Shown here piece after piece: positions 11,227-53,361 of a stretch of 53,842 nt of DNA; position 1 is the stretch's first letter; every line of letters starts with the position of its first letter. The notes under the pieces are model-generated. The model had not been told where the DNA came from and did not search any database. It saw nothing but the letters and a program-made list of their open reading frames with translations. The stretch spans positions 1-53,842 of IMG/VR virus record IMGVR_UViG_3300020125_000547; one strand, 5' to 3'. The position numbers and the translations under genes were made by a program. This stretch comes from a virus.

Positions 11227-12600
11227 ATGACGACTTTCAAGGCGTTTCCAGCCGGCCGGGTTGAGGCCGCGCGCGACGAGCTCGCGAAGGCGCAGCGCCG
11301 CCTCGAGCGCGCCGCGGTGCGCGCCGGCCAGGACGCGCCGGCCGCTCCGGCCGCTCCGGTGCTCACTGTGGTGCGCGAGTACGTGCTGAGCCGCTGCGCC
11401 AGCTACAGCGGCTGCGGCCGGGAGTGGGAGGGCGTCGGCCCGTGCCCCAGCGGGCGGACGTGCGGCCCGGTCAAGCGCCGCGCGCTGGTCGACCTCGAGC
11501 TCCAGGCGCCGCCGGCGCGGCTCGCGGGCTGGGACTTCCTCGCGGTCGTCGAGCCGCTGACCGGCGGCAATCTGATCCGGCAGGTCCCCGGCGCCGAGGT
11601 GGCCGAGGGCGAGCTCGCCGCGTGGCGTATGGGCCCGATCGCGTGCGACCACTGCAAGGCCGCGCGGCACCGCAAGGAGACGTTCATCCTGCGCGGCGAG
11701 GGTGTGGAGGTGCCGGCCGGCATGGTCCGGGCCCGGGTCTACAAGCAGGTCGGCCGCCAGTGCTTGGCTGCGTTCCTCGGCGGCCGGAGCGCAGCCGACA
11801 TCGTCGCCCGGTTGGGTTGGGACGCGATCGTGCGCGGCGCGGGCGGCGAGGAGGAGGAGGAGGGCTTCGGTGGCGGGCGCGGCGCCCTCGACCTGTACGA
11901 CCCGGCCGAGTTCCTGGCCTGGTGCTGCGCGGTCGCGCGCCTCGACGGGTTCGTGACGCGGAAGATGGCGTCGGAGGCGAGCGACGCGGGCGGCGGCCGC
12001 CGCGCCACCTCGAGCGAGGTCGAGTGGATGCTCGGCCCGGCGCCGACCGGCGATAGCCGGCCCGACTGGGTGGCTGCACGCGAGCGCCTCGCGCCCACCG
12101 AAGGTGACCAGACCCGCGCCGCGGCGACCCTGGCCTGGGCGCGCGCGCTGCCCGGTCGCGGCGACTACGAGCAGAGTCTCCGGCTGGTCGCCTCGCAGGA
12201 AGCCTGCCAGCCGAAGCACGCCGGGATCCTCGCGAGCGCGGTGCCGGCGTACGAGCGTGAGCTCGGCTTCGCGGTGAAGCGCGCGGCGCGCGGCCCAGGC
12301 GAGCACTACGGCGCGGTCGGGGAGCGCTACGAGCTCACGCTCACGGTCGAGAAGGTGGTGCCGATCGAGGGCGGGCAGTGGGGCCCGGCGGTGATCGCGA
12401 CCATGCGCGACGCGGCCGGCCGGTGCTTCATATGGCGGACCACCTCGAGCCCGGGCGCGGTCGGTACGACCCTCGCCCTGAAGGGCACCGTGAAGAAGCA
12501 CAGCGAGTTCCGCGGCGAGAAGCAGACCGAACTGACCCGGTGCCGGGTGGAGCGTCCGAAGGCGACGGAGGCAGGATCCGCGCCGTCGTGCGCGTCCTAG
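11227..12600 (+). CDS. zinc-binding protein with C-terminal OB-fold-like domain
   Basis: A 457-residue protein from ATG 11227 with AAGGGGG upstream. The first 45 residues are an Ala/Arg helix. Residues about 138-180 include ACDHCKAARHRKETF and KQVGRQCLAAFLGG, a metal-site arrangement common in related phage/plasmid proteins. The C-terminal region (about 365-445) has YELTLTVEKVVPIEGGQWG and then a strand series ending LKGTVKKHSEFRGEKQTELT, which looks like an OB-fold. A role in DNA replication or repair is plausible. It ends in A-S-stop within the GCGCGTCCTAG element of the next gene. Confidence 0.7.
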   Translation: MTTFKAFPAGRVEAARDELAKAQRRLERAAVRAGQDAPAAPAAPVLTVVREYVLSRCASYSGCGREWEGVGPCPSGRTCGPVKRRALVDLELQAPPARLAGWDFLAVVEPLTGGNLIRQVPGAEVAEGELAAWRMGPIACDHCKAARHRKETFILRGEGVEVPAGMVRARVYKQVGRQCLAAFLGGRSAADIVARLGWDAIVRGAGGEEEEEGFGGGRGALDLYDPAEFLAWCCAVARLDGFVTRKMASEASDAGGGRRATSSEVEWMLGPAPTGDSRPDWVAARERLAPTEGDQTRAAATLAWARALPGRGDYEQSLRLVASQEACQPKHAGILASAVPAYERELGFAVKRAARGPGEHYGAVGERYELTLTVEKVVPIEGGQWGPAVIATMRDAAGRCFIWRTTSSPGAVGTTLALKGTVKKHSEFRGEKQTELTRCRVERPKATEAGSAPSCAS

Positions 12601-12601
12601 G
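12590..12601 (+). promoter_or_regulatory. GCGCGTCCTAGG element, copy 5
   Basis: An exact plus-strand copy, 5 nt before ATG 12607 of the SspB-like gene. It contains the stop codon of the preceding gene; AGGA in it may also act as ribosome binding site. Confidence 0.68.
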
Positions 12602-12606
12602 ACCTC

Positions 12607-13113
12607 ATGAAGACCTGGATCACGTGGGAGCGCGAGGGCGCGCCAGCTGCGCGCGTCGAACTACCGGCCGAGGTCGCCGAGGAGATCGAGCGTCACGCGG
12701 CGGAGATCGGCGCGCCCGGCGCCGTTGACGTCGTCGCGTCGCTGGTGCGCAGCGTGGCCAGCGAGCTCCGCCAGCGGCCGCCGTTCGACGGCGAGGCGGC
12801 GGCTGCGACGCTGCGAGCGCTGCTCGACCAGGGCGCGGTGATGCTCACGCTCCGGCCGCAAGCGCACGGCGTCGACGTCCCCGAGGCGCTCCGCGACAGC
12901 CCGATCGTGACGCTGCGGTTCGGCTACGGCCTGACCCCGCCGATCCTCGGCCTGGAGGTCGACGCGGACGGGGTGCGTGGAACGCTGACCTTCGGCGTAA
13001 TGCCGTACTATTGCGTGATTCCCTGGCGCGCCGTGCTGATCGCGGCGCTCGAGCGTCCGACCGGGCCCGCCGCGCCGCCGGCATCACCGCGACCGAAGCT
13101 CAGGCTCGTGTAG
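12607..13113 (+). CDS. SspB-like ClpXP adaptor-domain protein
   Basis: A 168-residue protein. Residues about 75-150 contain AVMLTLRPQAHGVDVPEALR, SPIVTLRFGYGLTPPILGLE, then DADGVRGTLTFGVMPYYCVI and PWRAVLIAAL. This order of beta strands matches the substrate-tag-binding domain of stringent starvation protein B, which delivers ssrA-tagged and other substrates to ClpXP. The N-terminal 70 residues are helical and not typical of SspB. The C-terminus is Pro-rich and basic, where SspB carries its ClpX-binding tail. A phage copy could redirect host proteolysis. Confidence 0.7.
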   Translation: MKTWITWEREGAPAARVELPAEVAEEIERHAAEIGAPGAVDVVASLVRSVASELRQRPPFDGEAAAATLRALLDQGAVMLTLRPQAHGVDVPEALRDSPIVTLRFGYGLTPPILGLEVDADGVRGTLTFGVMPYYCVIPWRAVLIAALERPTGPAAPPASPRPKLRLV

Positions 13114-23611: not shown

Positions 23612-26600
23612 ATGTCCGAAGACGGCACCGAGCCGGTACGCATCAAAGGTCGGTTCGCGCCGGGCCGTTCCGGTAACCCGGCCGGCGGCGCGCGGCGCGC
23701 CCGCTCGGACGCCGCGCCGCCGGGCGGACGCCCGTCGCGCCACGACGCCGACTGGGTCAACTTCTTCACCGGCCAGGGGGTCCTCGGCCGAGACAAGCGC
23801 CTCGGCGCGCACTTCAACGTCACCCCGCTGAGCTTCGACCAGCTCATGCACCTCTGGCTTGGCGACGACCTCGCCGCCCGGGCCGTCGAGATGATCCCGA
23901 AGGAGGCCCTCCGGCAGGGCTACGACGTCACGGTCGCCGACTCGCAGGAGGGCACCGACGAGGACACCGACGGGCTCGACCCGAGTGAGGCGTCGGCCGA
24001 GATCACGGACGAGCTCGAGCGCCTCGGCGCGAACGACGCGATCGAGATCGCCGGGTCGTACGAGCGCGGCTACGGCGGCGGCGCGATCCTGATCGGCGCG
24101 AACGACGGCCAGGCCGACCTGACCCAGCCGCTCAACCTCAAGGCCGTCCGCAGCCTCGACTTCTTGAACCCGCTCGAGGCGCGCGAGTGCATGCCGATCT
24201 ACGCGTACGGCGACCCGCGGGCCCCGAAGTACGGCGAGCCGGAGATCTACCGGATCATCACGCGGAGCGTGCTGCCGAGCCGGCAGGGGTTCTCGGCGCA
24301 GACGATGGAGATCCACGAGAGCCGTCTCCTGATCTTCCCCGGGATCCGGGTCTCGCGGTTCCAGCCGCTCGCCGCGCGCGCCGGCTGGGGCGAGGCGGTG
24401 CTCACTCGGATCTACCGGGTGCTGCGCGACTTCAATGCCGCCTACGCCAACACTGGCGTCCTGATCAACGATTTCTCCCAGGCGGTTGTGAAGATCGCCG
24501 GGCTGTGGGAGGCGCTCGCGCAGGACGCCGGCGCGTTCAACCAGCGCCTCCAGGCGATGGAGGCCGGCCGCTCGACCGTCAACGCGATCGCGATCGACGC
24601 CGGCGACAGCTACGAGCGCCAGCAAACGCCGGTGACCGGGCTCTCGGACCTGCTCGAGCGGTTCGGCGTGCGGCTCGCTGCCGCCTGCGACATGCCGCTG
24701 ACCCTGTTGTTCGGCACGAGCCCGGCCGGGCTCAACGCCACCGGCGAGAGCGACATCCGATCGTTCTACGACCGTGTTGCGAGCTACCAGCAGCGCAAGA
24801 TCCTGCCGAAGCTCCGGCAGATCTGCCAGATCCTGTTCCGCACGATCGGCAGCCGGAGCGAGCCTGTGAACTGGTCGATCAAGTTCCGGCCGCTGTGGCA
24901 GGAGAGCGCCAAGGACCAGGCGTCGGCCGCGGCCGCGCTGGCGCAGGCCGACACGGCGTGGACCACCGCGAGCATTCTCAGCTCCGACGAGATCGCGAAA
25001 GCGCGTTGGGGTAAGGGGCAGGAGTTCGCCGGTATCACCGTCGACTTCTCGGCCCGCGAGGCCCAGGACGATCTCGGATCGCAACCCGGAGACCAGGAGG
25101 TCGTCACGCTGCCGGGCACAGGCGGCGCCGCCGGGACCGAGGTTGCGGCTCAGGCGTTCAACGGCGCGCAGATCTCCAGCATGCTGGAGATCGTCAAGGC
25201 GGCGACGGCGCGTCAGATCCCCATGGGCTCGGCCACGGCGATCATCCAGACGGCCTTCAACCTGTCGCCCGACAAGGCGAAGGCAATCACGTCGAGCGTG
25301 GCCGCGGCCCCGCTGCCGCCTGCGGTGGGAGCGACGGAACCGGACGAGCCAGACGAGGATCCGGAGCCGGAGGGCCCCGCGCCGACACCCGACGAAACAG
25401 ACGGTCCTGCGCCGAAGGCCGGCGAAGCGCGCGGCGACAGCACCCCGCCGCCGCGGTGCGAGGCGTGCGGGCTGGAGATCGATCGCGACGCCGCCGACTC
25501 AGCGTGCGTGCTGTGCGGCAAGGAGTACATCCCGCCCCCGCCCTCCGGGTCGGCGCGGCCGCAGCCGGACGTAGTGCCGCCCGGTCCGCCCGCCGCCCCC
25601 GACCCGAACACGCCGCCGGTGCGGATGATCACCGCAGAGGACCGCGCGGACGCGTGCGCCCGGCCGGGGGCGCAGCGCCTCGACTTCGACCCCGACCAGC
25701 CTCGCGCCCCCGATGGGAAGTGGGGATCGGGGGGTAGTGGTACCGACCCCGGCCGCGCGCCCGACGATCGCACCGCGGCGGCGGTCAGGGATCCAGCGTT
25801 CACCGCGCCGAACCGCGAGCGTCTGATCGCAGCCGGCGACCGCGTGCGCGCGAACTACCCCCGCGACCAGCGCGCTACCGACGCCGTCCACGAGGAGGCT
25901 CAGAAGGAGATCCGCGCCGAGGCCGGCCGGATCCTACGCGAGCAGGCGGTCGTGGGGAGTGACCCCCGCATGCAGGCCGAGCTCGAGCGGGTGCGCGGCG
26001 ACATGCCGGTCGCGCGCGTCGGTGACGAGTCGGCCAAGCAGCACGACGTCCTGATGGAGCGCGTCACCGAGCGCCGCGCCGAGCTCGCACAACACGACGA
26101 GGCGCGCGCGGCCGGGCTCGTTCCGAAGGTGCCGGACGAGGCGCTCAAGGCGTACCAGACGGCCGCGGCGCAGCACACGCCGGCGCTCGACGCTGCGCAC
26201 GCCGAGGTCGACGCCGCGAGCCAGAAGGCTCTCGACGCGCTCGGGAAGTACAGCGCGCGCGCCGGCGACGAGGAGCGCGACGCTCTCTTCGAGGGCGACA
26301 AGGCGCCCGGCGATGCCGAGGAGCTGGCCGCAAGCTACGCCCACGCCGCCGACCGGCTCGGCGGGAAGGGCGACGTCGACGAGAGCGGCGACTTCCGCGA
26401 CGCGCCGCCGTCGCAGGACAGATACCGCGAGATGGTCGACCCGGAGCGACACGCGCCCCCGGCCGACGTCGAGATCCCGGACCACTTCCGCGACGAGGAG
26501 ACCGGCGAGCTCAAGTCGAAGTGGGAGCCCGACCCGAGCTGGGAGCCGGACCACGTCACGCACGAGGAGGCCCAGAAGCTCAATTTCGAGGAACACGAGG

Positions 26601-27397
26601 AGGGCGAGCGCGCCAAGACCGGGCCGTGGGATCCGGATCGTTTTGCGTACGAGCAGGGTCATCTTGATCCGGACAACTTGCTGGGCGACCCTGACAAACA
26701 CGGTCACGTAAGCGCGGACTTCGACCCGAGCGACTACGACGAGAGCTTCGGACACACGGCCGAGAAGCATGCCGCCCTGGTGGCTACGTGGAACGCGGCC
26801 GCGGACGCCGATCGCACCGAGTACGAGCGGATCGCCGACAAGTGGAAGGCTGAGGAGAAGGCGCACGACGCCGCCGACAAGGCCGCGTTCGAGCGCGTGC
26901 AGAAGGCGGTCGCGGCGCACGCGGACGCCAGGCGCCAGGCGGCCGACGACGCCCAGGCGGCGCTCGAGGATCTCCACGGCAAGCAGACCGCGGCGCTGGC
27001 GACCGCGAAGACGATCGACAGGGCGGTCGCGAAGCCGCTCGCGGCGGCAAAGACCGAGGTCGGCGAGGAGGACTTCTCTCCTTCCGATCATGCGCACGAT
27101 CGCATCGCGGAGCACCCGGCGCTCGCGACGGCGACGCCGGCTGACGAGGACGACGACGAGCGTGTGTTCGCCAGCGAGCCGCACGAGCGGCTCTATCAAG
27201 GCGCGCAGGGCGCATTCGGCGAGGACGTCCAGACCGCGCGGAGCACGCGCGAGGTGCTCGGGCAGCGACACGGCGCGCAAACGCAGGGTGCGCTCGAGGA
27301 GGCGCGCGACCACACAGCGGCGCTGGTGCGGGCGCTCTCGCAGGTCTCCGGCCGCGCGCCGGCGCTCGCGAAGCCGAGCCGGAAGAAGCCGCGGTGA
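23612..27397 (+). CDS. portal protein (DUF1073-type) with DUF5681 N-terminus and long C-terminal extension
   Basis: 1261 residues, far longer than ordinary portals of about 450-550. Residues 6-22 hold the DUF5681-like KGRFAPGRSGNPAGG motif. Residues about 45-500 are the portal core (FDQLMHLWLGDDLAARAVEM, GSYERGYGGGAILIGAND, DMPLTLLFGTSPAGLNATGE, RVASYQQRKILPKLRQ). Residues about 615-640 form a zinc ribbon (CEACG...CVLCG). Residues about 689-705 have DFDPDQPRAPDGKWG, a motif common near the ends of phage head-assembly polyproteins. The remaining 550 residues are acidic helical coil. The ring forms the DNA entry vertex and binds TerL. Confidence 0.9.
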   Translation: MSEDGTEPVRIKGRFAPGRSGNPAGGARRARSDAAPPGGRPSRHDADWVNFFTGQGVLGRDKRLGAHFNVTPLSFDQLMHLWLGDDLAARAVEMIPKEALRQGYDVTVADSQEGTDEDTDGLDPSEASAEITDELERLGANDAIEIAGSYERGYGGGAILIGANDGQADLTQPLNLKAVRSLDFLNPLEARECMPIYAYGDPRAPKYGEPEIYRIITRSVLPSRQGFSAQTMEIHESRLLIFPGIRVSRFQPLAARAGWGEAVLTRIYRVLRDFNAAYANTGVLINDFSQAVVKIAGLWEALAQDAGAFNQRLQAMEAGRSTVNAIAIDAGDSYERQQTPVTGLSDLLERFGVRLAAACDMPLTLLFGTSPAGLNATGESDIRSFYDRVASYQQRKILPKLRQICQILFRTIGSRSEPVNWSIKFRPLWQESAKDQASAAAALAQADTAWTTASILSSDEIAKARWGKGQEFAGITVDFSAREAQDDLGSQPGDQEVVTLPGTGGAAGTEVAAQAFNGAQISSMLEIVKAATARQIPMGSATAIIQTAFNLSPDKAKAITSSVAAAPLPPAVGATEPDEPDEDPEPEGPAPTPDETDGPAPKAGEARGDSTPPPRCEACGLEIDRDAADSACVLCGKEYIPPPPSGSARPQPDVVPPGPPAAPDPNTPPVRMITAEDRADACARPGAQRLDFDPDQPRAPDGKWGSGGSGTDPGRAPDDRTAAAVRDPAFTAPNRERLIAAGDRVRANYPRDQRATDAVHEEAQKEIRAEAGRILREQAVVGSDPRMQAELERVRGDMPVARVGDESAKQHDVLMERVTERRAELAQHDEARAAGLVPKVPDEALKAYQTAAAQHTPALDAAHAEVDAASQKALDALGKYSARAGDEERDALFEGDKAPGDAEELAASYAHAADRLGGKGDVDESGDFRDAPPSQDRYREMVDPERHAPPADVEIPDHFRDEETGELKSKWEPDPSWEPDHVTHEEAQKLNFEEHEEGERAKTGPWDPDRFAYEQGHLDPDNLLGDPDKHGHVSADFDPSDYDESFGHTAEKHAALVATWNAAADADRTEYERIADKWKAEEKAHDAADKAAFERVQKAVAAHADARRQAADDAQAALEDLHGKQTAALATAKTIDRAVAKPLAAAKTEVGEEDFSPSDHAHDRIAEHPALATATPADEDDDERVFASEPHERLYQGAQGAFGEDVQTARSTREVLGQRHGAQTQGALEEARDHTAALVRALSQVSGRAPALAKPSRKKPR

Positions 27398-28377
27398 TGG
27401 CATCGTTGGTCGCGCGCGTCGCCCGTCCCTCCCAGGTCGCACGACGCGACGTCATCGAACGCGAGGGCACGGGGTGGTCCGTGTTCTCGGAGACGACGCC
27501 GCGTAAGCGGCTCGGTGGTCCGTACCGCTCGCGCACCGCGGCCGAGAAGAGGCTCGGCCAGATCGAGTTCTTTAAGCATCGGCGCGACGCCGCACGACCG
27601 CGTCCGCGGCTCCCCCGCCAGATGCCTCCGACTCGGATCGAGCAGGATTACGCGGCTGTGCTGATCCGAATGCTCGGTCGCGCGCGCGCGGCGTACGCGC
27701 CGCTGATCAAGGCGCTGCCGTCGATCCTGGAGGAGGCTGCCGCCGAGCGCGACGGCGCGCGCGCCGACAGCGCGTCAAGCCGAGCTCGTCGACTGCTTGC
27801 ACAGGCACGCGGATCCCCTGTGATCGACACGCGCGCGCTCGAGGCGCTCGCCGGCAAGTACGCGAAGGCGACGTCGGACCACCAGAAGGAGCAACTACGA
27901 CGCCAAGCGCACGCCGCGATCAAGGTCAACCCGGTGTTCAAGGACGCCGACCTGGCGCCGCTCTCGCGACATTTCGTACACGAGAACGTCGCATTGATCA
28001 AGCGTATCCCGGCGCGGCTGCACGACGACATCGAGGTGATGGTGCACCACGCGGTGTCGAGCGGGCGCCGGCACAAGCACCTGACCCGGCAGATCGAGGA
28101 CCGCTTCGGCGTCGCCGATCGCCATGCCCGGCTCATCGCGCGCGACCAGATCGGGAAGTTCCACGCCAAGGTCAACCACCACCGGCAGAGGGAGATGGGG
28201 GTCAAGAAGTTCGTGTGGCGGACGGTCGGTGACGAGCGGGTGAGGCCGTGGCACGAGGAGCTCGACGGCACCACGCACCGCTACAGCAAGCCGCCCGAGA
28301 ACCCGGACACCGGGGAACGGGCACTCCCCGGCGAAGAGATACAGTGTAGGTGTTCCGCTGAGCCAGTCTTTTCGTAG
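27394..28377 (+). CDS. Mu F-like / SPP1 gp7-like head morphogenesis protein
   Basis: A 327-residue minor head protein; GTG 27394 or ATG 27397 start, overlapping the portal stop. Residues about 20-60 form a small basic module (VFSETTPRKRLGGPYRSRTA). The C-terminal 110 residues carry the family signature: ARLIARDQIGKFHAKVNHHR, KKFVWRTVGDERVRPWHEEL, and an end with PGEEIQCRCSAEPVF. These proteins bind the portal and are packaged with the head. It is followed directly by an AT-rich promoter region. Confidence 0.88.
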   Translation: MMASLVARVARPSQVARRDVIEREGTGWSVFSETTPRKRLGGPYRSRTAAEKRLGQIEFFKHRRDAARPRPRLPRQMPPTRIEQDYAAVLIRMLGRARAAYAPLIKALPSILEEAAAERDGARADSASSRARRLLAQARGSPVIDTRALEALAGKYAKATSDHQKEQLRRQAHAAIKVNPVFKDADLAPLSRHFVHENVALIKRIPARLHDDIEVMVHHAVSSGRRHKHLTRQIEDRFGVADRHARLIARDQIGKFHAKVNHHRQREMGVKKFVWRTVGDERVRPWHEELDGTTHRYSKPPENPDTGERALPGEEIQCRCSAEPVFS

Positions 28378-28817: not shown

Positions 28818-29042
28818 ATGCACGCGTGGACCGTCCCGCCGCCCGATCCGCAGATGACCCCGGTCCGCGCGCGGCGGGGGCGGCTCGTGCACGCGACCAG
28901 CCTCCGGACACCGCGGCAGACCGCCTGCGGCCGACGGTGCGACGGCTGGGCGGTGGCGACCCGCGAGCGCGTCGACTGCCGTCCGTGCAAACTCGCCATG
29001 TTCGGCCGGCCGCGGCTGCGTCGCGGGGCGCGGCTCGCGTGA
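28818..29042 (+). CDS. Cys/His zinc-binding-like small protein
   Basis: A 74-residue protein. LVHATSLRTPRQTACGRRCD and later VDCRPCKLAMFG give H...C...C...CxxC, a plausible zinc site similar to small phage proteins of unknown role. It lies in the accessory block of the head operon. Confidence 0.6.
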   Translation: MHAWTVPPPDPQMTPVRARRGRLVHATSLRTPRQTACGRRCDGWAVATRERVDCRPCKLAMFGRPRLRRGARLA

Positions 29043-29052
29043 CGGCGCCCGG

Positions 29053-29322
29053 ATGCGGGGCGATCTCGTGACCGGGCTCGAGTGGGCCGGCGCGGCGTTC
29101 GGCGTGTTCGCGGCCGCGGTCGCCTACGACTTCGCGTTCGCCCGGTATACAGCTGCCGCCGCGGCGCGGCGCGCGGCCGCCGCGGCGGGGTGGTCCGCGA
29201 CCACCTACGGGGTCGGGCTCGTCGGCTTCGCCGCGGTGCTGCGCGGCTCGATCTGGCTGGCGGTCCCGGAGGCGGTCGGCCTGTTTGTTGGGACATGGCT
29301 CGGCGTCCGGCGCCGGCGCTGA
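29053..29322 (+). CDS. small membrane protein with two transmembrane segments
   Basis: An 89-residue protein. Segment one is about GAAFGVFAAAVAYDFAFARY; after an Ala/Arg loop, segment two is about GVGLVGFAAVLRGS continuing to AVGLFVGTWLGV. It ends in R-R-R-R. This resembles two-helix inner-membrane proteins often found in phages. Role unknown; superinfection exclusion or lysis-related functions are possible guesses only. Confidence 0.65.
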   Translation: MRGDLVTGLEWAGAAFGVFAAAVAYDFAFARYTAAAAARRAAAAAGWSATTYGVGLVGFAAVLRGSIWLAVPEAVGLFVGTWLGVRRRR

Positions 29323-29328
29323 ACCACC

Positions 29329-29511
29329 CTACGTGGTACGCAGATCCGCCGTGCATGAATCAGCGCAACTGGCGCACCAGGTGTCCGGGCAGATCAGTTG
29401 CGACACCGGGTTCGGGCACTGCAGACCGCCGCGCGCGGACGCGAGGTCCGATGCTGCGAGTGCGCGAATCGTGTTGGAGCGGAGGGCGAGCTTCTTGAGC
29501 GTGGGGCGCAT
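29329..29511 (-). CDS. RiPP-precursor-like peptide (double-glycine leader, Cys/Ser/Thr-rich core)
   Basis: A 60-residue peptide on the strand opposite the head genes. From ATG 29511 it reads MRPTLKKLALRSNTIRALAA, then SDLASARGG. This matches the 'KLxLxxxTIRxLxxxxLxxVxGG' leader of lanthipeptide-type and related RiPP precursors common in myxobacteria and other high-GC bacteria. The core after GG has 31 residues with five Cys plus several Ser/Thr (CPNPVSQLIC, DTWCASCADSCTADL). TACCCT lies 6 nt upstream of the ATG, as at other leaderless starts. No modifying enzyme or transporter is in the window. A tiny zinc protein is the alternative reading. Confidence 0.55.
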   Translation of the reverse strand: MRPTLKKLALRSNTIRALAASDLASARGGLQCPNPVSQLICPDTWCASCADSCTADLRTT

Positions 29512-29523
29512 GCGCTCAGGGTA
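29512..29523 (-). promoter_or_regulatory. leaderless-type -10 element of the RiPP-like gene
   Basis: On the minus strand TACCCT (29523-29518) lies exactly 6 nt before ATG 29511. TACCCT also precedes the genes at 44067 and 45637. Confidence 0.45.
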
Positions 29524-29546
29524 GCCGACATGCACAAACCGCGCCG

Positions 29547-29576
29547 CACCGGCACGGTCGGTGCTATGCTAGTTCC
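29547..29576 (+). promoter_or_regulatory. extended -10 promoter of the protease/scaffold gene
   Basis: CACCGGCACGGT (29547-29558) is followed by TGCTATGCT and, 6 nt after the -10, GTG 29577. The same 12-mer, the same TGCTATnCT and the same TCCGTG ending occur at 45752-45784. This makes a shared promoter type convincing. Confidence 0.7.
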
Positions 29577-31328
29577 GTGCCGACTGCACATCCGCCAGCC
29601 GTCCGACGCGTGCACCGGACCGACCTGAGCACGCTCCAGCCCGTCGAGGAGCGCGACGACGGGACGATCGTTGCCGACGGGCGCCTGACCCGGTGCGGGG
29701 TGTTCACTTACTTCCAGCCCGACGGCTCCGTCCGACGCGAGCTCCGGCGGAGACAGGATGTCTGCAATCCTGCAAGTTTGCATACACTGATCGGCCGGCC
29801 GGTCACGAACAATCACCCGCCGGGGCTACTCGACGCGAAGACCGCGCGCGAGTGGATGGTCGGCGCACAGGCCGGCGACGTCACCGTCGACGAGGACCAC
29901 GTCCGAAGCAAGGTGTCGGTCCTCGACGCCTCGACGATTGGCGCCATGCGCGCCGGGAAGGTCGAGGTGTCGTGCGGGTACGAGTGCGACTGCCTCGAGA
30001 TCCCCGGCGAGGATCCGGTGTACGGCCGGTACGACGCGATCCAGACCAACATCAAATACAACCATATCGCGATCGTAGACAAGGGTCGCGCGGGGCCGAC
30101 CGCCGCCGTCCGCATGGACGGGTGGATGGTAGCGGAGCCGGCGGCCGCGCCCGGGCGGGGCGCGCGCGGCACGCGACTTGCTAGTCCGGCCTCCGCATGC
30201 AATCCTCGATCCATGGCCAAGCGCAAGTCGACCGCGGGAGCACGCGCCGAAGGGGCGCGCGGTGATGCCGCCGGGTCGCCCGACCCGAACGACGAAGCGA
30301 GCCGCAATGCCGGCGGCGACAACGACGCGCCGCCCGCGCCGAAGGCACCCGCCGCCGAGGGCGTCGAGCACGACGACGATGACACGGACGAGGGTGACGA
30401 AGTGGAGATGGACGCCTACGACGCCATGTACGGCGACGACGGCTGCCTGACCGACGCGACGCGCACGAAGATGGCGGCCGCGAACTTCGCTGTCCCGGGC
30501 AAGGAACGGCTTCCGATCCACACCGCGGACGCGGTGAAGGGTTCGATGAAGCGGTTCGGAGCTACGGAGTTCGATGACGCGGACGAGAAGCACGCGGCCT
30601 TCAACCGCATCAACGCGCGCGCCAAGGAATTTGGCGTCAGCACCACCAATTTTCAGCGCGCACACGGCGCCAAGCTCGACCGGGCCGGCGGCCCACGGAG
30701 CGATACCAGCATGACCGCAGACGAGATCAAGAAGCTCCAGGCGCGCGCCGACAAGGCCGAGGCCCGGAAGACGGCCCGTGACGAGGCCCGCACCCGCGCC
30801 GACGCTGCCGAGGCGAAGGTCAAGGAGCTCGAGGGCAAGGTCGCCGGGCTCGAGGGCCAGGTCAAGAGCCTGACCACGGACCTGGAGACGGCCAAGAAGG
30901 GGCACCTCGACTCGGCCGCGATCGACAAGATCGTCGCGGACCGCGCCGAGCTCGTCGCGACCGCGACGCGCGTCGGCGCCCAGGTCACCGCAGCCATGCC
31001 TCCGGTCGACATCAAGCGCGCGGTGATCAAGCACCTGGACAAGGACGACGTGCCGGCGGACAAGCACTCCGAGTACGTCGAGGCCCTATACCAGGGGGCG
31101 CTCAAGCGCCACAAGGCGCACGCGGACGCCACCCAGGCCGGTGCGAACGCGCTCGCCGCGGCGCGCGGCACCGGCGGTGCGACCACGCCGACCGTCGTGA
31201 CGCCGCCCGCGCCCGGCACCGGCGCGACCATGCCCAGCGAGGCCGAGGCCGCGGCCCGGATGCGGAACGATTCCGAGAACGCCTGGGCCAAGCCCGGCAA
31301 CGCCACCGCGCTGCGGGGAGGCTACTAG
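29577..31328 (+). CDS. capsid maturation protease (DUF2213-like) fused to scaffold
   Basis: 583 residues from GTG 29577. Residues about 45-185 match DUF2213 prohead-protease-like proteins: LHTLIGRPVTNNHPPGLLD, VRSKVSVLDASTIGAMRAGK, VSCGYECD, and NHIAIVDKGRAGP. Residues about 200-300 are acidic linker. Residues about 310-355 hold a second conserved module (LPIHTADAVKGSMKRFGATE). Residues about 385-450 are a strong coiled coil, the expected scaffold. The protein would template the shell and then cut head proteins. It has its own promoter after the accessory block. Confidence 0.85.
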   Translation: MPTAHPPAVRRVHRTDLSTLQPVEERDDGTIVADGRLTRCGVFTYFQPDGSVRRELRRRQDVCNPASLHTLIGRPVTNNHPPGLLDAKTAREWMVGAQAGDVTVDEDHVRSKVSVLDASTIGAMRAGKVEVSCGYECDCLEIPGEDPVYGRYDAIQTNIKYNHIAIVDKGRAGPTAAVRMDGWMVAEPAAAPGRGARGTRLASPASACNPRSMAKRKSTAGARAEGARGDAAGSPDPNDEASRNAGGDNDAPPAPKAPAAEGVEHDDDDTDEGDEVEMDAYDAMYGDDGCLTDATRTKMAAANFAVPGKERLPIHTADAVKGSMKRFGATEFDDADEKHAAFNRINARAKEFGVSTTNFQRAHGAKLDRAGGPRSDTSMTADEIKKLQARADKAEARKTARDEARTRADAAEAKVKELEGKVAGLEGQVKSLTTDLETAKKGHLDSAAIDKIVADRAELVATATRVGAQVTAAMPPVDIKRAVIKHLDKDDVPADKHSEYVEALYQGALKRHKAHADATQAGANALAAARGTGGATTPTVVTPPAPGTGATMPSEAEAAARMRNDSENAWAKPGNATALRGGY

Positions 31329-33631: not shown

Positions 33632-33669
33632 GCGGCCCCGGCGCATCCCCGCCGGGGCCGCTTTCGTTT
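33632..33669 (+). terminator. intrinsic terminator after the major capsid gene
   Basis: GCGGCCCCGGCG (33632-33643) pairs perfectly with CGCCGGGGCCGC (33650-33661), a 12-bp stem with 6-base loop, followed by TTTCGTTTG. Partial read-through to the neck genes is likely. Confidence 0.85.
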
Positions 33670-33679
33670 GGAGGCACGC

Positions 33680-34240
33680 ATGATCTCCCCCGTTCTTCTC
33701 CCCAAGACCGCCGCGTCCGTCGCCTACACAGGCACGCCGGGCGCGCTCACCCTCGACGGCACGCAGCGGCCGGGGCAGGCCACCTACGAGCTCGTGACGA
33801 CCTCGCTCGCGTGGTTCGCCCAGGGCATCGCGGCGTCGACGTTCACCGCGACCGCAGCGACCGATGTTTGCACCCTGACCGCGCCGACGACCCACAACCA
33901 GGTCACCGGCGACGGTCCGGTGCAACTCACCACGACGACGACGCTGCCGGCGGGACTCAGCCTCGCGACGAACTACTGGCTGATCGTCGTCGACGCGAGC
34001 AACGTGAAGCTCGCGACGTCGCGCGCGAACGCGCTCGCCGGGACCGCCGTCGACATCACCAGCGCCGGCACCGGGACGCACACGATGACCACGTTCGCGA
34101 CGAAGAACGGCGCGAGCTCGGTCCAGGTGCCGGCCGGCCTGCCGCGGACGATCGACGGCGCCAACGGCCCGGCGATCTCCGTCGTGCAGGACACGGCGGC
34201 CGGCGAAGCGACGCTGACCGCGGTGCTGGTGGTGCGATGA
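33680..34240 (+). CDS. structural protein carrying the recurrent 'TGDGPV' domain
   Basis: A 186-residue protein from ATG 33680 with GGAGG upstream. Residues 1-50 are a short beta domain. Residues about 60-140 are the recurrent module: TTHNQVTGDGPVQLTTTTTL, NYWLIVVDASNVKLATSRAN, AGTAVDIT, GTGTHT. The last 45 residues return to a beta domain (VPAGLPRTIDGANGPAI). It lies between capsid and adaptor genes, so probably on the head or neck. Confidence 0.7.
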   Translation: MISPVLLPKTAASVAYTGTPGALTLDGTQRPGQATYELVTTSLAWFAQGIAASTFTATAATDVCTLTAPTTHNQVTGDGPVQLTTTTTLPAGLSLATNYWLIVVDASNVKLATSRANALAGTAVDITSAGTGTHTMTTFATKNGASSVQVPAGLPRTIDGANGPAISVVQDTAAGEATLTAVLVVR

Positions 34241-34694: not shown

Positions 34695-35177
34695 GTGGGC
34701 CTGATCAAGAACGACAAGGTGTTCCGCGAGCTCCGCAAGAAGCTCGGGAAGCTCGCCGACGCCAAGGTCCGGGTTGGCGTGCTCGAGGGCGGCGACGACG
34801 AGGTCGAGAGCGAGTACGGCGACCTGACGATCGTCGAGCTCGCGACGATCCACGAGTACGGCGCGCCGGAGGCGAACATCCCCGAGCGCTCGTTCCTGCG
34901 CAAGACCTTCACCGACGACCGCGGTCGCGCCGAGACCGCCGAGTTTCAAGCCGAGCCGGCGAAGCAGGTGATCGAGGGCAAGCTCGGCGCGAAGACCGCG
35001 CTCAAGCGGATCGGCGCGTGGGGCGCGGCGAAGGTGCGCGAGCGGATCCGCGAGGGGATCGACCCTCCGCTTCGTCCGGCGACGATTCAGCGGAAGGGGA
35101 GTTCGACGCCGCTGGTGGATACCGGGCATCTGCAGGCGAGTGTGAGCTGGGAGATCGACGAGGGCGGCGGTGAGTAG
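34695..35177 (+). CDS. tail completion / virion morphogenesis protein (HK97 gp10 / Mu G-like)
   Basis: A 160-residue protein. VRVGVLEGGDDEV, VELATIHEYGAPEANIPERS and FLRKTF near the middle, then RPATIQRKGSSTPLVDTGHL and a QASVSW end are the hallmarks of this neck family. It links the head to the tail tube. The homing endonuclease gene starts within its last codons. Confidence 0.88.
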   Translation: MGLIKNDKVFRELRKKLGKLADAKVRVGVLEGGDDEVESEYGDLTIVELATIHEYGAPEANIPERSFLRKTFTDDRGRAETAEFQAEPAKQVIEGKLGAKTALKRIGAWGAAKVRERIREGIDPPLRPATIQRKGSSTPLVDTGHLQASVSWEIDEGGGE

Positions 35178-35820
35178 AACGCTCTACGTGCTCGTGGATC
35201 CGCGCGATCATCGCGTGCGCTACGTGGGTGTGACCGTGAATCCGGGCGTGCGGCGCATGCAGCATCGCGAACGTCCGCCGTCTCGCGAGAAAACTCCGCT
35301 GGCGAAATGGAAACGAAAACTGCAACGGAAACACGGTAGCCGACCGCTATTTGTGCCGGTCCTGTGTTGCCAGACCGACGAAGCTTTATACGAGGCTGAG
35401 ATTGCGTGGATTCGTTATTACCGTGCGCGCTGCCTTGATCTCCTCAACGTGGCCGACGGCGGCGTGAGAGACATGACGAAGTGGCGCGAATCCAAATCCG
35501 GACACATGCCATGGAACAAAGGTAAGACGTTTTCCGATGAAGCGCGCGAGCGCATGAGCAGTGCGGCGCGGAGACGCCGCGCGTCCGCCGAGACGCGCGC
35601 GAAAATGTCGGCGGCGCGCATGGGTCACGCGGTATCCGACGAGACACGCTCGCGTATCGGTGCGAAGACGCGCGCGAACGCCACCAGCAAACGACCCGAA
35701 GTGCGGGCCAGGATCGCCGAGACGCTGCGTGGTCGGACGCTGCCTGACGACGTCAAAGCCAAGTTGCGCGCATCACAGCAGCTACGACGCAGCCGCGAGC
35801 GCTGGAGTCAGGTGCCGTGA
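35170..35820 (+). CDS. GIY-YIG homing endonuclease with NUMOD3 repeats
   Basis: A 216-residue free-standing endonuclease from GTG 35170. Residues 4-20 have LYVLVDPRDHRVRYVGVTVN, the GIY-YIG half with YVLV and YVG. A conserved AEIAWIRYYRARCLDLLNVA (about 77-95) holds the catalytic Glu. Residues 115-205 contain NUMOD3-like DNA-binding repeats (HMPWNKGKTFSDEARERMSS, SAETRAKMSAARMG, SDETRSRIGAKTR). Composition is richer in A/T than its neighbours, consistent with invasion. It overlaps genes on both sides, so it disrupts none. Confidence 0.9.
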   Translation: MSRTLYVLVDPRDHRVRYVGVTVNPGVRRMQHRERPPSREKTPLAKWKRKLQRKHGSRPLFVPVLCCQTDEALYEAEIAWIRYYRARCLDLLNVADGGVRDMTKWRESKSGHMPWNKGKTFSDEARERMSSAARRRRASAETRAKMSAARMGHAVSDETRSRIGAKTRANATSKRPEVRARIAETLRGRTLPDDVKAKLRASQQLRRSRERWSQVP

Positions 35821-36242
35821 GCCTCCTCAACGTGATCCGACGCTACGCCACCGGCCCGATCCCGATCATTCGCACGCCGGTTGGCACCGTGGTCGACGGG
35901 CAGTACACACCCAGCGACCCCGGCGGCTCATTCTCGTCGCCGACGTTCTCGTCGACGTTCGACACCGACGCGACCCTCACCACGGACCCGATCTACACGA
36001 GCGTGCAGCCGATCAGCGGTGACGAGCTCAAGGACCTCCCCGAGGGCCAGCGCACCGAGGACTCCTGGTACGTGTGGACGACGACGGTGTTGCTCGCGCG
36101 CTCCGCCGCCAACGATCCGGACGTGCTGGTCGGCGGCGTCGGCCTGCCCGAGGGCTCGTGGCGCGTGGAGAAGGTCGAGGGTCCGTTCCGGCTGCTCTCC
36201 GGTCACTACCGGGTGACGGTAAGCAAGGTGGACATCCAGTGA
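35817..36242 (+). CDS. neck/connector structural protein
   Basis: A 141-residue protein from GTG 35817. IRRYATGPIPIIRTPVGTVV, IYTSVQPISGDELKDLPEGQ and HYRVTVSK follow the pattern of small neck proteins with 'SVQPxSGxxLxxLPEGxR'. It lies between tail-completion and tail-terminator genes. Confidence 0.72.
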   Translation: MSLLNVIRRYATGPIPIIRTPVGTVVDGQYTPSDPGGSFSSPTFSSTFDTDATLTTDPIYTSVQPISGDELKDLPEGQRTEDSWYVWTTTVLLARSAANDPDVLVGGVGLPEGSWRVEKVEGPFRLLSGHYRVTVSKVDIQ

Positions 36243-37144
36243 GCGCCATCGCCTGGACCGCGATCCAGAAGGCCCTGCACACCTGGGTCGTCGCCGGCTC
36301 CGGGCTCCCCTTCGATCATGTGCTGTGGGGCTACCGCGGCGCCGGCCGGCCGACCGCGCCACACATCATCCTCACGATCACGAACGTGCGCAACCCCGCG
36401 CACGACTTCGCGAAGGACGAGGACAACCCCCTCACGTTCGGGTCGCTGACGGTCTCGAGCGTCGACTTCGCCGGGAACACGCTCGCGATCGCCGGGCACC
36501 CGCTGGTCACCGGCGACGGGCCCGTGCGTGTCACCTCGACCGGCGGGCTGCCGGCGCCGCTCCAGGCCGGCACCGACTACTGGGTCGTCGTAGTCGATGC
36601 CGGGCACGTCCAGCTCGCCAGCACCTACGAGCACACCGGCGGCAACAACGTCGCGCGCGGACTCGGTTCGACCCCCAACCCCGTCACGGTGATCGCCCTG
36701 ACGACCGCAGGCTTCGGCACGATCACCCTGAGCGCGACCGCCGACACCGTCCGCGCCGGGCAGGAGATCATCGCGCGGGCACAGGGCGTCCGCGAGGTCG
36801 TCATGCACGCCGACTGCTACGCGCCGGAGGGCAGCGGGATCCAAGCGGTGCAGATCCTGACCGACGTGCAAGCCGCCCTCCAGCTCTATGCGACCGCGCT
36901 CGACGCCGCCGGCGTCGGGGTGACGGACTTCGGCGAGGCGTTCTCGCAGGGCGGGGTGAAATTCGTATCCGGCCGCCGCGGGACGATCCTCGAGCCCCGG
37001 GCGATGTTCGATACCACCTTCTACGTAGCCTCCGAGATTACCGGATTCGAGACGATCGTTTCGAGCGTGTCCGCGGACCTGGAGCTACAATCACCGGGTG
37101 GGGACGCCCTCCCTGCAATTCCCGTGCAAGTCACCAGGAGCTAG
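36239..37144 (+). CDS. neck/tail terminator protein with inserted 'TGDGPV' domain
   Basis: A 301-residue protein from GTG 36239. The first 60 residues (IQKALHTWVVAGSGLPFDHV, LWGYRGAGRPTAPHIILTIT) and the last 110 (EIIARAQGVREVVMHADCYA, FGEAFSQGGVKFVSGRRGTI) are the terminator fold of myoviruses. Residues about 65-160 are an extra copy of the recurrent module (HPLVTGDGPVRVTSTGGLPA, YWVVVVDAGHVQLAST). The insertion sits in a loop, so it is likely displayed on the neck. Confidence 0.78.
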   Translation: MSAIAWTAIQKALHTWVVAGSGLPFDHVLWGYRGAGRPTAPHIILTITNVRNPAHDFAKDEDNPLTFGSLTVSSVDFAGNTLAIAGHPLVTGDGPVRVTSTGGLPAPLQAGTDYWVVVVDAGHVQLASTYEHTGGNNVARGLGSTPNPVTVIALTTAGFGTITLSATADTVRAGQEIIARAQGVREVVMHADCYAPEGSGIQAVQILTDVQAALQLYATALDAAGVGVTDFGEAFSQGGVKFVSGRRGTILEPRAMFDTTFYVASEITGFETIVSSVSADLELQSPGGDALPAIPVQVTRS

Positions 37145-37156
37145 CCGCGCAATCAC

Positions 37157-38800
37157 ATGGCCGACAGTGACTTCGTCACGTTCACGATCGCGATCACGAA
37201 CGCCGGTCTCTCGCAGCCCAGCTTCGCGACCCCCCTGATCCCCTCGTATAGCGCGACCTTCCTGGGTGTGCGCTCGTACGGTCAAGCCTCGGACGTCGCC
37301 GTGGACTTCGCCGTGGGCACCGTCGAGTACACCGCCGCCGCCGCGATCTTCGCGCAGCCGGTGCACCCTGACACTGTCAAGATCGCCGCGGCGACGCTGC
37401 CGCCGACAATGCAGTACCAGCTCGGCGCGGCCGCGGCCGTCAACGCCACGAAGTACCAGGTGCAGGTCGACGGGCCCGGGATCACGTCGACGCTCATCTC
37501 GATCACGAGCGACAGTTCGGCGACCGTGCCCGAGATCAACAACGCGCTCCTCGTTGCGCTGAACGCGGTCGTCGGCGCGAACTACACGGCCGCGTTCTCG
37601 CTGCTGGCGTTCACCAACTTCACGTTCACCGCCGACAGCACGACCGACCACCTGACCGCGACCGCGCACGGGCTCAACACCGGCGACGGCCCCGTGCAGG
37701 TCAGCAACTCCGGCGGCGGGCTGCCCGGCGGCCTGGCGACTTCGACGAACTACTGGGTGATCAAGATCGACGCGAACACGTTCGAGCTCGCAACGTCGCT
37801 GGCGAACGCGCTCGCCGGGACCCAGATCGACATCACGACGAACGGTACCGGGACGCAGACGGTGCTCCACCAGACCACCACCGCGTCGCCGAGCCTGGCG
37901 CTGACGATCACCGGCAACTTGGCCGGTAACTGGTTCTCACTCGAGATCAAGAACTTCACCCTGCTGTCGAACAAGATCACCCACGCCGACCCGGGGATCG
38001 CGACGACGCTCGCGGCGATCAGGGCCATCGACGACGACTGGTACTGGCTCGTGATGCCTTGGCCGTCGCACGCGCAGGTCCTGGCCACCGCGGCCTGGGT
38101 CGAGGCCAACGGCAAGGTCTATCTGCCCTTCACCATCTCGACCGACTCGATCAACCAGGCAGTCGGGTTCGGCGATACGCTCGATACGCTCAAGGGCTTC
38201 GCTTACACCCGCACGGACGCCAAGTGGCACCCGTCGCCGGTGCAGATGTTCGACGCCGCGAGCATCGGCGCGATCGCGCCGAAGAACCCCGGTACCTACA
38301 CCGAGGCATTCAAGACCCTCACAGGTGTCCAGCCGGTGAAGCTCTCCCCGACGCAGCGGCAGAACCTCAAGGACCGCCGCGCCGGCAGCTACACGACCGA
38401 GCGCGGCCGGAACGTGACCTGGGACGGGAAGGTCGGCTCAACTACGTACGGCTATCTCGACATCCGGGTCACGGTCGACTGGTTCTCGAGCCAGGTGATC
38501 GGCGCGGTGCTCGGCGTGCTGTTCTCGCTCGACAAGGTCGCCTATACCGACGAGGACATCTCGGCGATCGCAGGCGCGATCCGCGGCGTGATCGCGAACG
38601 CAGTGAGCGACGCGCACAAGGCGCTCGACCCGGGCGACCCGACCAGCACCGACAACCCGCCGCCGGCGGTGACGTTCCCGCGCGTCGCGGACATCTCGGC
38701 GGCGACGCGCGCGCTGCGCCAGCTCCCCAACGGGCTCATCACGGGCCGGTTCCAGGGCGCCGTGCAGAGCGTGGCATTCCAGGCCGTGCTGACGTTCTAG
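37157..38800 (+). CDS. contractile tail sheath protein (DUF3383) with inserted 'TGDGPV' domain
   Basis: A 547-residue protein. The N-terminal part (DFVTFTIAITNAGLSQPSFA, FLGVRSYGQ) and the large C-terminal domain (YWLVMPWPSHAQVLATAAWV, GVQPVKLSPTQRQNLKDRRA, YGYLDIRVTVDWFSSQVIGA) match DUF3383 sheath-like proteins. Residues about 155-235 are the recurrent module (LTATAHGLNTGDGPVQVSNS, NYWVIKIDANTFELATSLAN). The insert would project from every sheath ring. The presence of a sheath defines a myovirus-type tail. Confidence 0.88.
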   Translation: MADSDFVTFTIAITNAGLSQPSFATPLIPSYSATFLGVRSYGQASDVAVDFAVGTVEYTAAAAIFAQPVHPDTVKIAAATLPPTMQYQLGAAAAVNATKYQVQVDGPGITSTLISITSDSSATVPEINNALLVALNAVVGANYTAAFSLLAFTNFTFTADSTTDHLTATAHGLNTGDGPVQVSNSGGGLPGGLATSTNYWVIKIDANTFELATSLANALAGTQIDITTNGTGTQTVLHQTTTASPSLALTITGNLAGNWFSLEIKNFTLLSNKITHADPGIATTLAAIRAIDDDWYWLVMPWPSHAQVLATAAWVEANGKVYLPFTISTDSINQAVGFGDTLDTLKGFAYTRTDAKWHPSPVQMFDAASIGAIAPKNPGTYTEAFKTLTGVQPVKLSPTQRQNLKDRRAGSYTTERGRNVTWDGKVGSTTYGYLDIRVTVDWFSSQVIGAVLGVLFSLDKVAYTDEDISAIAGAIRGVIANAVSDAHKALDPGDPTSTDNPPPAVTFPRVADISAATRALRQLPNGLITGRFQGAVQSVAFQAVLTF

Positions 38801-50197: not shown

Positions 50198-51232
50198 ATG
50201 CCAGGGTTCGACGATAGTTTCGACAGCTCGGCCTTCGAGGCGGACGAGACCGCGCAGGCGGGCGAGGAGCTGTCGAACTCGGTGCCGGATCCGACCCCCG
50301 CCGCGCGTCCTACAGCGGGTACCGCCGTGTTGTCCGAGGTTACCGCATACACACACCTGATCTACGGACTCGTCGATCCGCGGGATCACCTCATCCACTA
50401 CGTGGGGCGATCGGCGAACGGGCTACACAGGCCACATCAGCACAAGACGAAACATGTTTCCGCAGCCATGCGCGATTGGCAGAGCGAACTGACCGCACGT
50501 GGTTTGATGCAGGAGATCGTTGTTCTCGAGGTCGTGCCAACCGAGAGAGCGTACAGTCCGGCGGTCAACGTGTTTCTACCGTGGTGGCTCGACGGTCGGA
50601 ACACACGCGCGCTGAGTGCCGCGGAGGGTTGGTGGATCGCCTACGGGCGCGCGAGTGGGTGGCCGCTGTTGAACATCGCGGACGGCGCCAGTGGCGGACA
50701 CTACCACAAGGCCAGACCCGAGACTGTTGAGCGACGGCGTGCAAAACTGATCGGCAAGCGGCGTAGTGCTGAGTATCGTCGTCGGCAGAGCGAGCGTTTC
50801 AAAGGACGCCCCCAGCCACAACTCAGAACAAAAGAGGTGCATGAAAAGTCGGCAGCCAGCAGACGCGGCCTGAAGCGAACACCAGCACAGCGTGCAAAAA
50901 TGTCCGTAGCTCAGTCCCAACGCCACCGTGATGCGGTACCTCCGTGGTTACCGCTGGTACTCGGCGCGGCTCCCGATCGTGTCGTTGGCGAGGTAGCGGG
51001 CAAGTCCGTACCTACGATCTGCGCTTATCGAAACACCTTGGGTATTCCGACATTTCGCACCGGCAAGTGCTACAAAGAATCGTTGCCGGTTTGGTTTCCT
51101 CTGGTCGCCGGAACAGTGACAGATCGCGTGGTCGGATCGTTAGTTGGCCTATCTGAGTTTACGATAAGCAAACATCGTAACAGCCTGGGCATTCCGGCAT
51201 TCCGTGTAACCAGCCGCAGCGAAGGACGCTGA
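50198..51232 (+). CDS. GIY-YIG homing endonuclease with a tail-protein N-terminal tag
   Basis: 344 residues. Residues 1-27 (MPGFDDSFDSSAFEADETAQ, AGEELSN) nearly repeat the start of the next gene. The GIY-YIG domain follows at about 50-155 (LIYGLVDPRDHLIHYVGRSA; AAEGWWIAYGRASGWPLLNI with the catalytic Glu). Residues 160-245 are basic NUMOD-like. Residues about 248-335 are two repeats of a DNA-binding unit (WLPLVLGAAPDRVVG...TICAYRNTLGIPTFR and WFPLVAGTVTDRVVG...TISKHRNSLGIPAFR). Composition is more A/T-rich than neighbours. Its stop overlaps the start of the tail gene (TGATG). Confidence 0.9.
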   Translation: MPGFDDSFDSSAFEADETAQAGEELSNSVPDPTPAARPTAGTAVLSEVTAYTHLIYGLVDPRDHLIHYVGRSANGLHRPHQHKTKHVSAAMRDWQSELTARGLMQEIVVLEVVPTERAYSPAVNVFLPWWLDGRNTRALSAAEGWWIAYGRASGWPLLNIADGASGGHYHKARPETVERRRAKLIGKRRSAEYRRRQSERFKGRPQPQLRTKEVHEKSAASRRGLKRTPAQRAKMSVAQSQRHRDAVPPWLPLVLGAAPDRVVGEVAGKSVPTICAYRNTLGIPTFRTGKCYKESLPVWFPLVAGTVTDRVVGSLVGLSEFTISKHRNSLGIPAFRVTSRSEGR

Positions 51233-51864: not shown

Positions 51865-53361
51865 ATGTCCAAGCCATCCACGCTCTACACCTGGGCCGTC
51901 GCGACGAACTACACCGGCGGCCCGGCCTCAGGAACCGCAACGAAGACGCCGCCCACCAGTGGCGCCGGCAGCCAGCAGGACGAGGGTCTGCGTCCCGGCG
52001 ACGCGCTCGGCGCGCAACTTCTCGGGGCTCTCTTCAACAACATCTTCGCGTGGCTCGCCTACGTCACATCCAACCAGATCGACGGCTCGCTGGTCATCGG
52101 CGGGGCCGCGCTGACGTTCACCCCCTTCACCTTCACGGCGACATCGGGGACGCCCGGCTTGCTCACCGCGACCGCGCACGGCCTCCAGACCGGCGACGGT
52201 CCCGTGCGCGTGAGCAACTCGGGCGGCGGCTTGCCGGGCGGCCTGGCGGCCGGCACGGACTACTGGGTGATCTTCGACACGACGAACACGCTGCGGCTGG
52301 CGACGTCGCTGGCCGACGCGGTCGCGGCCGACCCGGTCGTGATCACGAGCAACGGCACCGGCACGCAGACGCTCTCGCCGGGCACGTCACCGACGCGCCT
52401 CGGGGACCTGACGGTCATGCGTGGCGCGACGGTCGCAGGGACTCTGCAGACCGGCCGCAAGGCGACGGTGGGCGGGCTGACGCTGAGCGTGCCGTCGTTC
52501 GTCTTCACCGCGAGCTCGAGCACGGACAAGCTCACGGCGACCGATCACGGCCTGCTGCAGGGGGACGGTCCTGTGCAGGTCTCGAACAGCGGCGGCGCGC
52601 TCCCCGCCGGCCTCGCGGCGGTGACGAACTACTGGGTGATCTTCGACACGACGAGCACAATCAAGCTCGCCACGTCGTACGCGAACGCGGTGGCCAGCGT
52701 GGCGATCGACCTCACCACCAACGGATCCGGGACGAACACGCTCGCGTGCACGGCTTCGACCGTGCGGCCGGCTGACGCCGAGGTGACGGGGACGCTGACG
52801 GTGGACGGCACCACCACAATGAGCGGTGCCGTGACAGCTAGCAGCACGGTCGATACCACAGGGCTGCTTACCGCACATGCCGGCCTCACTGCTTCCGTGA
52901 ACCAGGACGTCACGGTGAGCGGTACGGGCGGTCACCGACACGGCACGCAGACTTTGACAATCAGCGGCTTTAACTTCCGCGCGGCGAACGGAACCACTGC
53001 GACCTACGATGCCAGCGGGTCCGGCACGGGCATCGCGTTCTCCGGTGGACAGGGTGTTATCGCAGCACTACCGATGCTCGTTGGTCGTCGTGTTACGGCT
53101 GCACGGTTTTACATTCACGACAACGCGAGCCCTTCAACCGTGCTTGCTTGCGCGATTGACACACGCGGATCGACCAACGCACAAAGTACGCTCGCAGCCA
53201 GTAGCAACTCCGCGGGCAACGGAACCGACCAGACAAAAACCGCGACCGTAGGAAGTCCTGCCGCACTGGCGGCCGGCACAGCCCTGGAGTTGTTTGTGAA
53301 GATCCAGAGTGGTGCAGGAACGTGTTCGTTGTATATGGTCGAAGTGGATTACGACTTCTAA
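51865..53361 (+). CDS. tail fibre with two 'TGDGPV' domains
   Basis: 498 residues from ATG 51865 with GAAGGA upstream. The first 85 residues form an attachment region (GLRPGDALGAQLLGALFNNI, AWLAYVTSNQIDGSLVIGGA). Copies of the recurrent module lie at about 90-170 (ATAHGLQTGDGPVRVSNSGG) and 210-295 (ATDHGLLQGDGPVQVSNSGG). Residues about 295-350 are Thr/Val-rich repeats. The C-terminal 120 residues (VGRRVTAARFYIHDNASPST, FVKIQSGAGTCSLYMVEVDY) form a jelly-roll-like tip. The same tip fold occurs in the convergent gene at 53363. Confidence 0.8.
   Translation: MSKPSTLYTWAVATNYTGGPASGTATKTPPTSGAGSQQDEGLRPGDALGAQLLGALFNNIFAWLAYVTSNQIDGSLVIGGAALTFTPFTFTATSGTPGLLTATAHGLQTGDGPVRVSNSGGGLPGGLAAGTDYWVIFDTTNTLRLATSLADAVAADPVVITSNGTGTQTLSPGTSPTRLGDLTVMRGATVAGTLQTGRKATVGGLTLSVPSFVFTASSSTDKLTATDHGLLQGDGPVQVSNSGGALPAGLAAVTNYWVIFDTTSTIKLATSYANAVASVAIDLTTNGSGTNTLACTASTVRPADAEVTGTLTVDGTTTMSGAVTASSTVDTTGLLTAHAGLTASVNQDVTVSGTGGHRHGTQTLTISGFNFRAANGTTATYDASGSGTGIAFSGGQGVIAALPMLVGRRVTAARFYIHDNASPSTVLACAIDTRGSTNAQSTLAASSNSAGNGTDQTKTATVGSPAALAAGTALELFVKIQSGAGTCSLYMVEVDYDF

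Follow-up and report, generated by a model that had tools for sequence, protein, structure and literature searches.

The window analysed here is the complete virus record IMGVR_UViG_3300020125_000547 of IMG/VR (53,842 bases, G+C ~70%), and the element in question is a short open reading frame (ORF) on its minus strand, the product of which resembles the precursor of a ribosomally synthesized and post-translationally modified peptide (RiPP). The window encodes a DUF2213 head protease, a PF09950 major capsid protein, a Mu F-like head gene and a tail sheath, and therefore belongs to a contractile-tailed phage. The ORF lies in a gap of 254 bp (29323-29576) between plus-strand genes of the head region and runs antisense to them. 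The locus contains the following features:

29329-29511, minus strand: RiPP-precursor-like ORF of 60 amino acids (aa), with its ATG at 29511 and a TAG stop at 29329-29331; from translation, the best small ORF in the gap.
29425-29511, minus strand: leader of 29 residues ending in ARGG (KLxLx3TIRxLx4Lx4GG), aligned with six other phage peptides and six Spirosoma class I lanthipeptide precursors.
29332-29424, minus strand: core of 31 residues with 5 Cys (spacing 8,4,2,3) and 7 Ser/Thr, not conserved between phages.
29518-29523, minus strand: TACCCT, a predicted -10-like box (leaderless-type promoter) that precedes the ATG by exactly 6 nt.
29565-29570, plus strand: TATGCT, a predicted divergent -10-like box that precedes the GTG start of the DUF2213 gene by 6 nt.
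29053-29322, plus strand: small phage protein on one flank of the slot; the related phage L002 has a conserved counterpart (tblastn, 46% over 46 aa).
29577-31328, plus strand: DUF2213 head maturation protease gene on the other flank of the slot (Pfam PF09979, E-value 3.5e-33; PHROG 530).

Translation of the ORF yields the leader MRPTLKKLALRSNTIRALAASDLASARGG followed by the core LQCPNPVSQLICPDTWCASCADSCTADLRTT. A preceding sequence-only reading had described a 60-residue minus-strand product here, antisense to the structural genes, with K-L-A-L-x3-T-I-R-x-L spacing in a leader ending in ARGG and a 31-residue core with five Cys, and translation returned exactly this arrangement. With five Cys and seven Ser/Thr, the core would be able to form thioether rings, as class I lanthipeptide cores do. 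An AlphaFold2 model of the peptide displays a helix at residues 12-26 and a disordered core, at low confidence (mean predicted local distance difference test, pLDDT, 54).

Similar peptides are present in other phages. A degenerate DNA pattern for LxLx3T[IL]RxLx9GG, scanned over 2.9 million viral contigs, gave nine matches, three of which are ATG-started peptides of 60-68 aa with 4-6 Cys on L031/G019 (76 kb), L034/G020 (58 kb) and L037/G021 (53 kb). At random positions, an ATG at -6/-7 combined with a stop 40-65 codons downstream and four or more Cys has a frequency of 1.7e-4, whereas 3/9 of the pattern matches show this combination. A stricter pattern (ET[ILV]R) returned three matches, all leader-GG-Cys peptides and one of them new, and an AT-rich (Bacteroidota-like) leader pattern gave 0 matches over the viral contigs. 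Three further peptides were obtained by contig reading with a frame search, BLAST and a profile. In total, six peptides are found in three high-GC phages: two in G019, three in G020 and one in G021. All six start with an ATG 4-7 codons before LxL, have K or R preceding LxL and contain 3-6 Cys. The phage nature of the three genomes is evident from integrase and terminase (G019), terminase (G020) and major head protein and RecT (G021). The three have little in common, be it among themselves or with the phage of the window, and a search with the window capsid protein gave no match in them. In each, a peptide lies within ~2-4 kb of recombination genes (an exonuclease, a RecT-like annealing protein, or an ATPase with a phage-family match).

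Within the seven phage peptides, the window included, pairwise identity is 45% in the leader (BLOSUM score 47.8 vs -5.9 for shuffled sequences) and 28% in the core (1.3 vs -2.9), the latter being near the shuffled background. A conserved leader in front of a hypervariable core is the pattern of RiPP precursor families in general. The sequence-only reading had proposed that poor conservation of the GG and Cys positions would speak against a precursor. Here, the leader terminus GG is kept in 6/7 peptides (AG in 1/7) and the Cys content is kept as well; the Cys spacing is not, being different in all seven. Such variable spacing is expected for RiPP cores and speaks against a zinc finger.

Beside some of these precursors other small genes were seen. 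Genes for small Cys-containing lipoproteins, at L042:10684-11022 (G019) and L046:2988-3335 (G020), immediately precede a precursor gene or share 4 nt with it, and could encode immunity or partner proteins. Homology between the two lipoproteins is suggestive by eye and was rejected as not significant, since 199/2000 shuffles reach the score. Furthermore, a protein of ~500 aa with a lipoprotein-like N-terminus is 45% identical between G019 (11564-13045) and G020 (26198-27733).

The likeness extends to known RiPP precursors. The leader consensus was searched against 7.3 billion bases of plasmid sequence and gave five weak matches, four of them chance-like (E. coli) and the fifth annotated as 'class I lanthipeptide' on a Spirosoma plasmid. 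Besides six such precursors, this plasmid locus encodes a lantibiotic dehydratase (LanB), two LanC proteins and an ABC transporter with a peptidase domain. The window leader segment KLSLDKETISRLDEAQLKALVGG aligns without gaps to Spirosoma KLALRSNTIRALAASDLASARGG over 23 residues. Class I lanthipeptide leaders of Bacteroidota have the spacing LxLxKx5L and often end in GG (Walker et al., 2020, PMC7268733); the window peptide has the LxL...x5L spacing and the terminal GG, with S at the K position. The class I lanthipeptide leader model NF038153 gives in-register matches below its cut-off for three of the six other peptides (E-values 0.0067, 0.05 and 0.12), and TIGR04149 gives a sub-threshold match (E-value 0.022) on one relative in G020 (G020c). 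At the level of the leader, the window ORF looks like a class I lanthipeptide precursor.

For the locus itself, the nearest phages in the collection are L002 and L003 (59-60% capsid identity). L002 retains homologues of 28818, 29053 and the DUF2213 gene in order, and L003 begins just upstream of DUF2213. Since the flanks are kept and the contents of the slot differ, the ORF appears to be variable cargo. For a phage 'moron', an own promoter, independent transcription and a site at which close relatives lack the gene would be expected; here, the gene is absent from L002 and L003, with flanks conserved in L002, and the promoter is a predicted one. The sequence-only reading had claimed an own, leaderless-type promoter, and a fitting TACCCT-N6-ATG box is indeed present, as a prediction. 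The gene at 28818 is preceded by TACGAT-N6-ATG, which matches the same TANNNT-N6 layout, and TANNNT-N6-[AG]TG occurs 12 times in the phage vs 2-10 times at other spacings. A consensus scan for a sigma-70 type -35/-10 pair at the locus found none, nor did the minus strand show a terminator. More broadly, TANNNT boxes 6 nt before ATG or GTG are over-represented at gene starts, for example at 28818, 29511, 29577 and in the 45734 region, which suggests leaderless transcripts and a host using them.

Several observations weigh against reading the ORF as a lanthipeptide-like precursor. The three first relatives were found with a window-derived pattern, which makes the motif match partly circular. The window leader has N where the six other phage peptides have E before the T, and it ends in ARGG, the commoner form being hydrophobic-x-GG. 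The leader-model search proposed in the sequence-only reading failed to support it: no curated leader model matches the window peptide, and the NF038153 scores of the three relatives (16.6, 13.8 and 12.6 bits) stay below the 22-bit curated cut-off. The window ORF is missed by a profile hidden Markov model built from the six Spirosoma leaders. L002 and L003 contain no such peptide, other genes occupying the slot, and the 60-aa peptide alone found no relatives and no meaningful match in the viral, genome, phage and plasmid collections and no match in NCBIfam, Pfam and PHROGs. The codon usage of the ORF is not phage-like, in a test that is neutral and counts neither for nor against coding.

Neutral codon usage, no relative at the same locus and no matching curated model would also fit an ORF that arose by chance in a spacer with promoters, its leader resembling RiPP leaders by coincidence. 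On the contrary, none of 300 dinucleotide-shuffled versions of the window contained the motif within a small ATG ORF. With a profile built from four leaders of the other phages, the ORF ranks first of 955 window ORFs (E-value 1e-5, next 0.29), a partly circular result as three of the four leaders had been found with the window's own motif. A less circular check is the comparison with the six annotated Spirosoma lanthipeptide leaders, in which the window leader has the highest ungapped score among all 78,235 window 23-mers (32.3, next 25.3). Together with the six like peptides elsewhere, these tests led to rejection of a chance origin, which is very improbable, and the ORF is highly likely to be a real gene. 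The six further leader-GG-Cys peptides, the conserved leader with variable core, the in-register sub-threshold NF038153 matches and the match to a LanB/LanC cluster support the proposal of the sequence-only reading that the product is a RiPP-type precursor, and this is very likely the case. It is not classed as a class I lanthipeptide precursor, since the curated cut-off is not reached and cognate enzymes were not found.

With respect to these enzymes, no match to LanC (PF05147), LanB-type dehydratase (Lant_dehydr_N, PF04738) or radical SAM and no over-threshold match to an ABC transporter were obtained in the four phages or in L002 and L003, the families searched being the main, not all, RiPP families. 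None of the phages thus encodes a leader-binding modifying enzyme of the families tested, and for these Pfam families the earlier statement that no synthetase or transporter is nearby holds. LanB and LanC are not encoded alongside the precursor in the phage record and its relatives; the host may supply them. In the simplest mechanism, the precursor alone would come from the phage, and host enzymes would act on it via the leader. Maturation in trans by the host is considered probable.

Taken together, the favoured reading, given somewhat better than even confidence, is an orphan, class-I-lanthipeptide-like RiPP precursor with an LxLx3TIxxLx4Lx4GG leader, carried as an accessory 'moron', independently transcribed and matured by host enzymes. 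Here, the phage would supply the substrate, with the gene transcribed from its own promoter. The leader helix would be bound by a leader-guided system of the host, of the LanB/LanC type or another, and dehydration and cyclisation by host enzymes would follow at Ser/Thr and Cys in the core. Subsequently, a GG-specific C39 peptidase-transporter of the host would cut after GG and export the product. The product may benefit the phage or the lysogen by inhibition of competitors or by superinfection exclusion, and any one particular effect is less likely than not.

A conserved leader and absent enzymes would also be compatible with a leader decoy, in which the peptide competes for the host RiPP dehydratase, cyclase or peptidase-transporter and thereby blocks anti-phage lanthipeptides of the host. 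A decoy needs a conserved leader while its core is unconstrained, as the cores here look, and lanthipeptides active against phages have been described in Streptomyces (review, PMC12360287). Nevertheless, Cys/Ser/Thr cores and a cleavable GG would not have to be kept by almost every member for a decoy to work, and no host pathway is known here, so that such an anti-defence function is unlikely. The same GG leader and Cys-containing core could belong to a secreted peptide without thioether rings, exported by a host C39 transporter, folded by disulfides and acting as a bacteriocin-like toxin or signal, since the GG leaders handled by C39 transporters are of many kinds (PMC10352776). However, the extended LxLx3TIRxL in front of the GG is shared with precursors of LanB/LanC clusters and the Cys number of the window core is odd, which makes this explanation improbable as well.

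A small zinc-binding regulatory protein instead of a precursor was considered because of WCASC (CxxC) in the core and the adjoining Cys-motif phage protein (28818-29042). This is hardly credible and the zinc finger was rejected, as the Cys spacing differs in all seven peptides and the core has no predicted fold. A predicted zinc finger had been named in the sequence-only reading as a refutation of the precursor; the predicted structure consists of the leader helix and a disordered core without a zinc finger, although the model is weak.

Beyond the slot, some further features of the window phage were observed. The gene at 28818-29042, near the RiPP-like gene, encodes a 74-aa protein with CxxxC and CxxC that is 40% conserved in L002 and looks like a small zinc-binding phage protein. 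A domain of ~80 residues (HGLNTGDGPxQV...NYWVI.A..ATSLANALAGT) is repeated with ~37-72% identity in at least four structural proteins:

33668-34240, 36074-37144, 37157-38800 (tail sheath) and 51865-53361: ~80-residue repeated domain, also present in L002 and L003.

NUMOD3-containing genes, probably homing-endonuclease genes, lie within the structural region at 35170-35820 and 50198-51232, the L002 counterpart being located elsewhere (1106-1879). The gene at 23612-27397 encodes a protein of 1261 aa, of which residues ~44-487 match portal-position proteins of related phages and the ~770 residues thereafter have no match in related phages. As for the host, the window major capsid protein had no match in the genome contigs. 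Among 43 phages, the window terminase has weak similarity to Myxococcus phage Mx4; no such peptide was found in the examined parts of phages Mx4 (50 kb) and Mx8, and a myxobacterial host is a candidate only.

The literature, as far as it was covered, contains no description of enzyme-less precursors in phage genomes, and the links between RiPPs and phages that were found run via the hosts. This includes an ocean study, the pipeline of which filtered out predominantly viral contigs (PMC11118758). Virus-borne precursors without enzymes are easily missed, since most RiPP discovery tools start from the enzymes. As at least three unrelated phages carry such genes, phages may use the peptide-tailoring machinery of their hosts. 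Whether phages of high-GC bacteria more generally carry enzyme-less RiPP precursors that hijack or jam host lanthipeptide-type machinery, as a modified peptide or as a leader decoy, is judged an even call. If maturation takes place in trans, a single 200-bp gene would make phages vectors able to reprogram a peptide-antibiotic or defence pathway of the host; as decoys, the precursors would represent a new kind of counter-defence.

Among known systems, the class I lanthipeptides of Bacteroidota (NF038153) share the KLxLx3T[IV]xxLx4Lx4GG register and a Cys and Ser/Thr core, and their several precursors per cluster resemble the several per phage found here. In contrast to them, the peptides described here are phage-borne, have no LanB, LanC or transporter nearby, carry Arg after T[ILV] and score below the model cut-off. 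The radical-SAM-modified precursors of TIGR04149 (GG_sam_targ_CFB) have a similar N-terminal motif, but none of the phages contains a radical SAM gene. RiPPs encoded by a phage together with their enzymes are already known: sublancin (SunA) of the Bacillus prophage SPbeta is a phage-encoded precursor with a GG leader, and SPbeta also encodes the modifying enzyme and the transporter. Both systems are phage-encoded GG-leader precursors, whereas no enzyme or transporter gene was found here; in the literature covered, no recurrence of enzyme-less precursors in unrelated phages was described. In the prochlorosins, multi-copy precursors with a conserved leader and a hypervariable core are encoded on the cell's own chromosome and the enzyme may be distant. 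The peptides of the window phage and the three other phages have the conserved leader, the hypervariable core and a possibly distant enzyme in common with them, while here the precursor is located in a virus instead of the chromosome.
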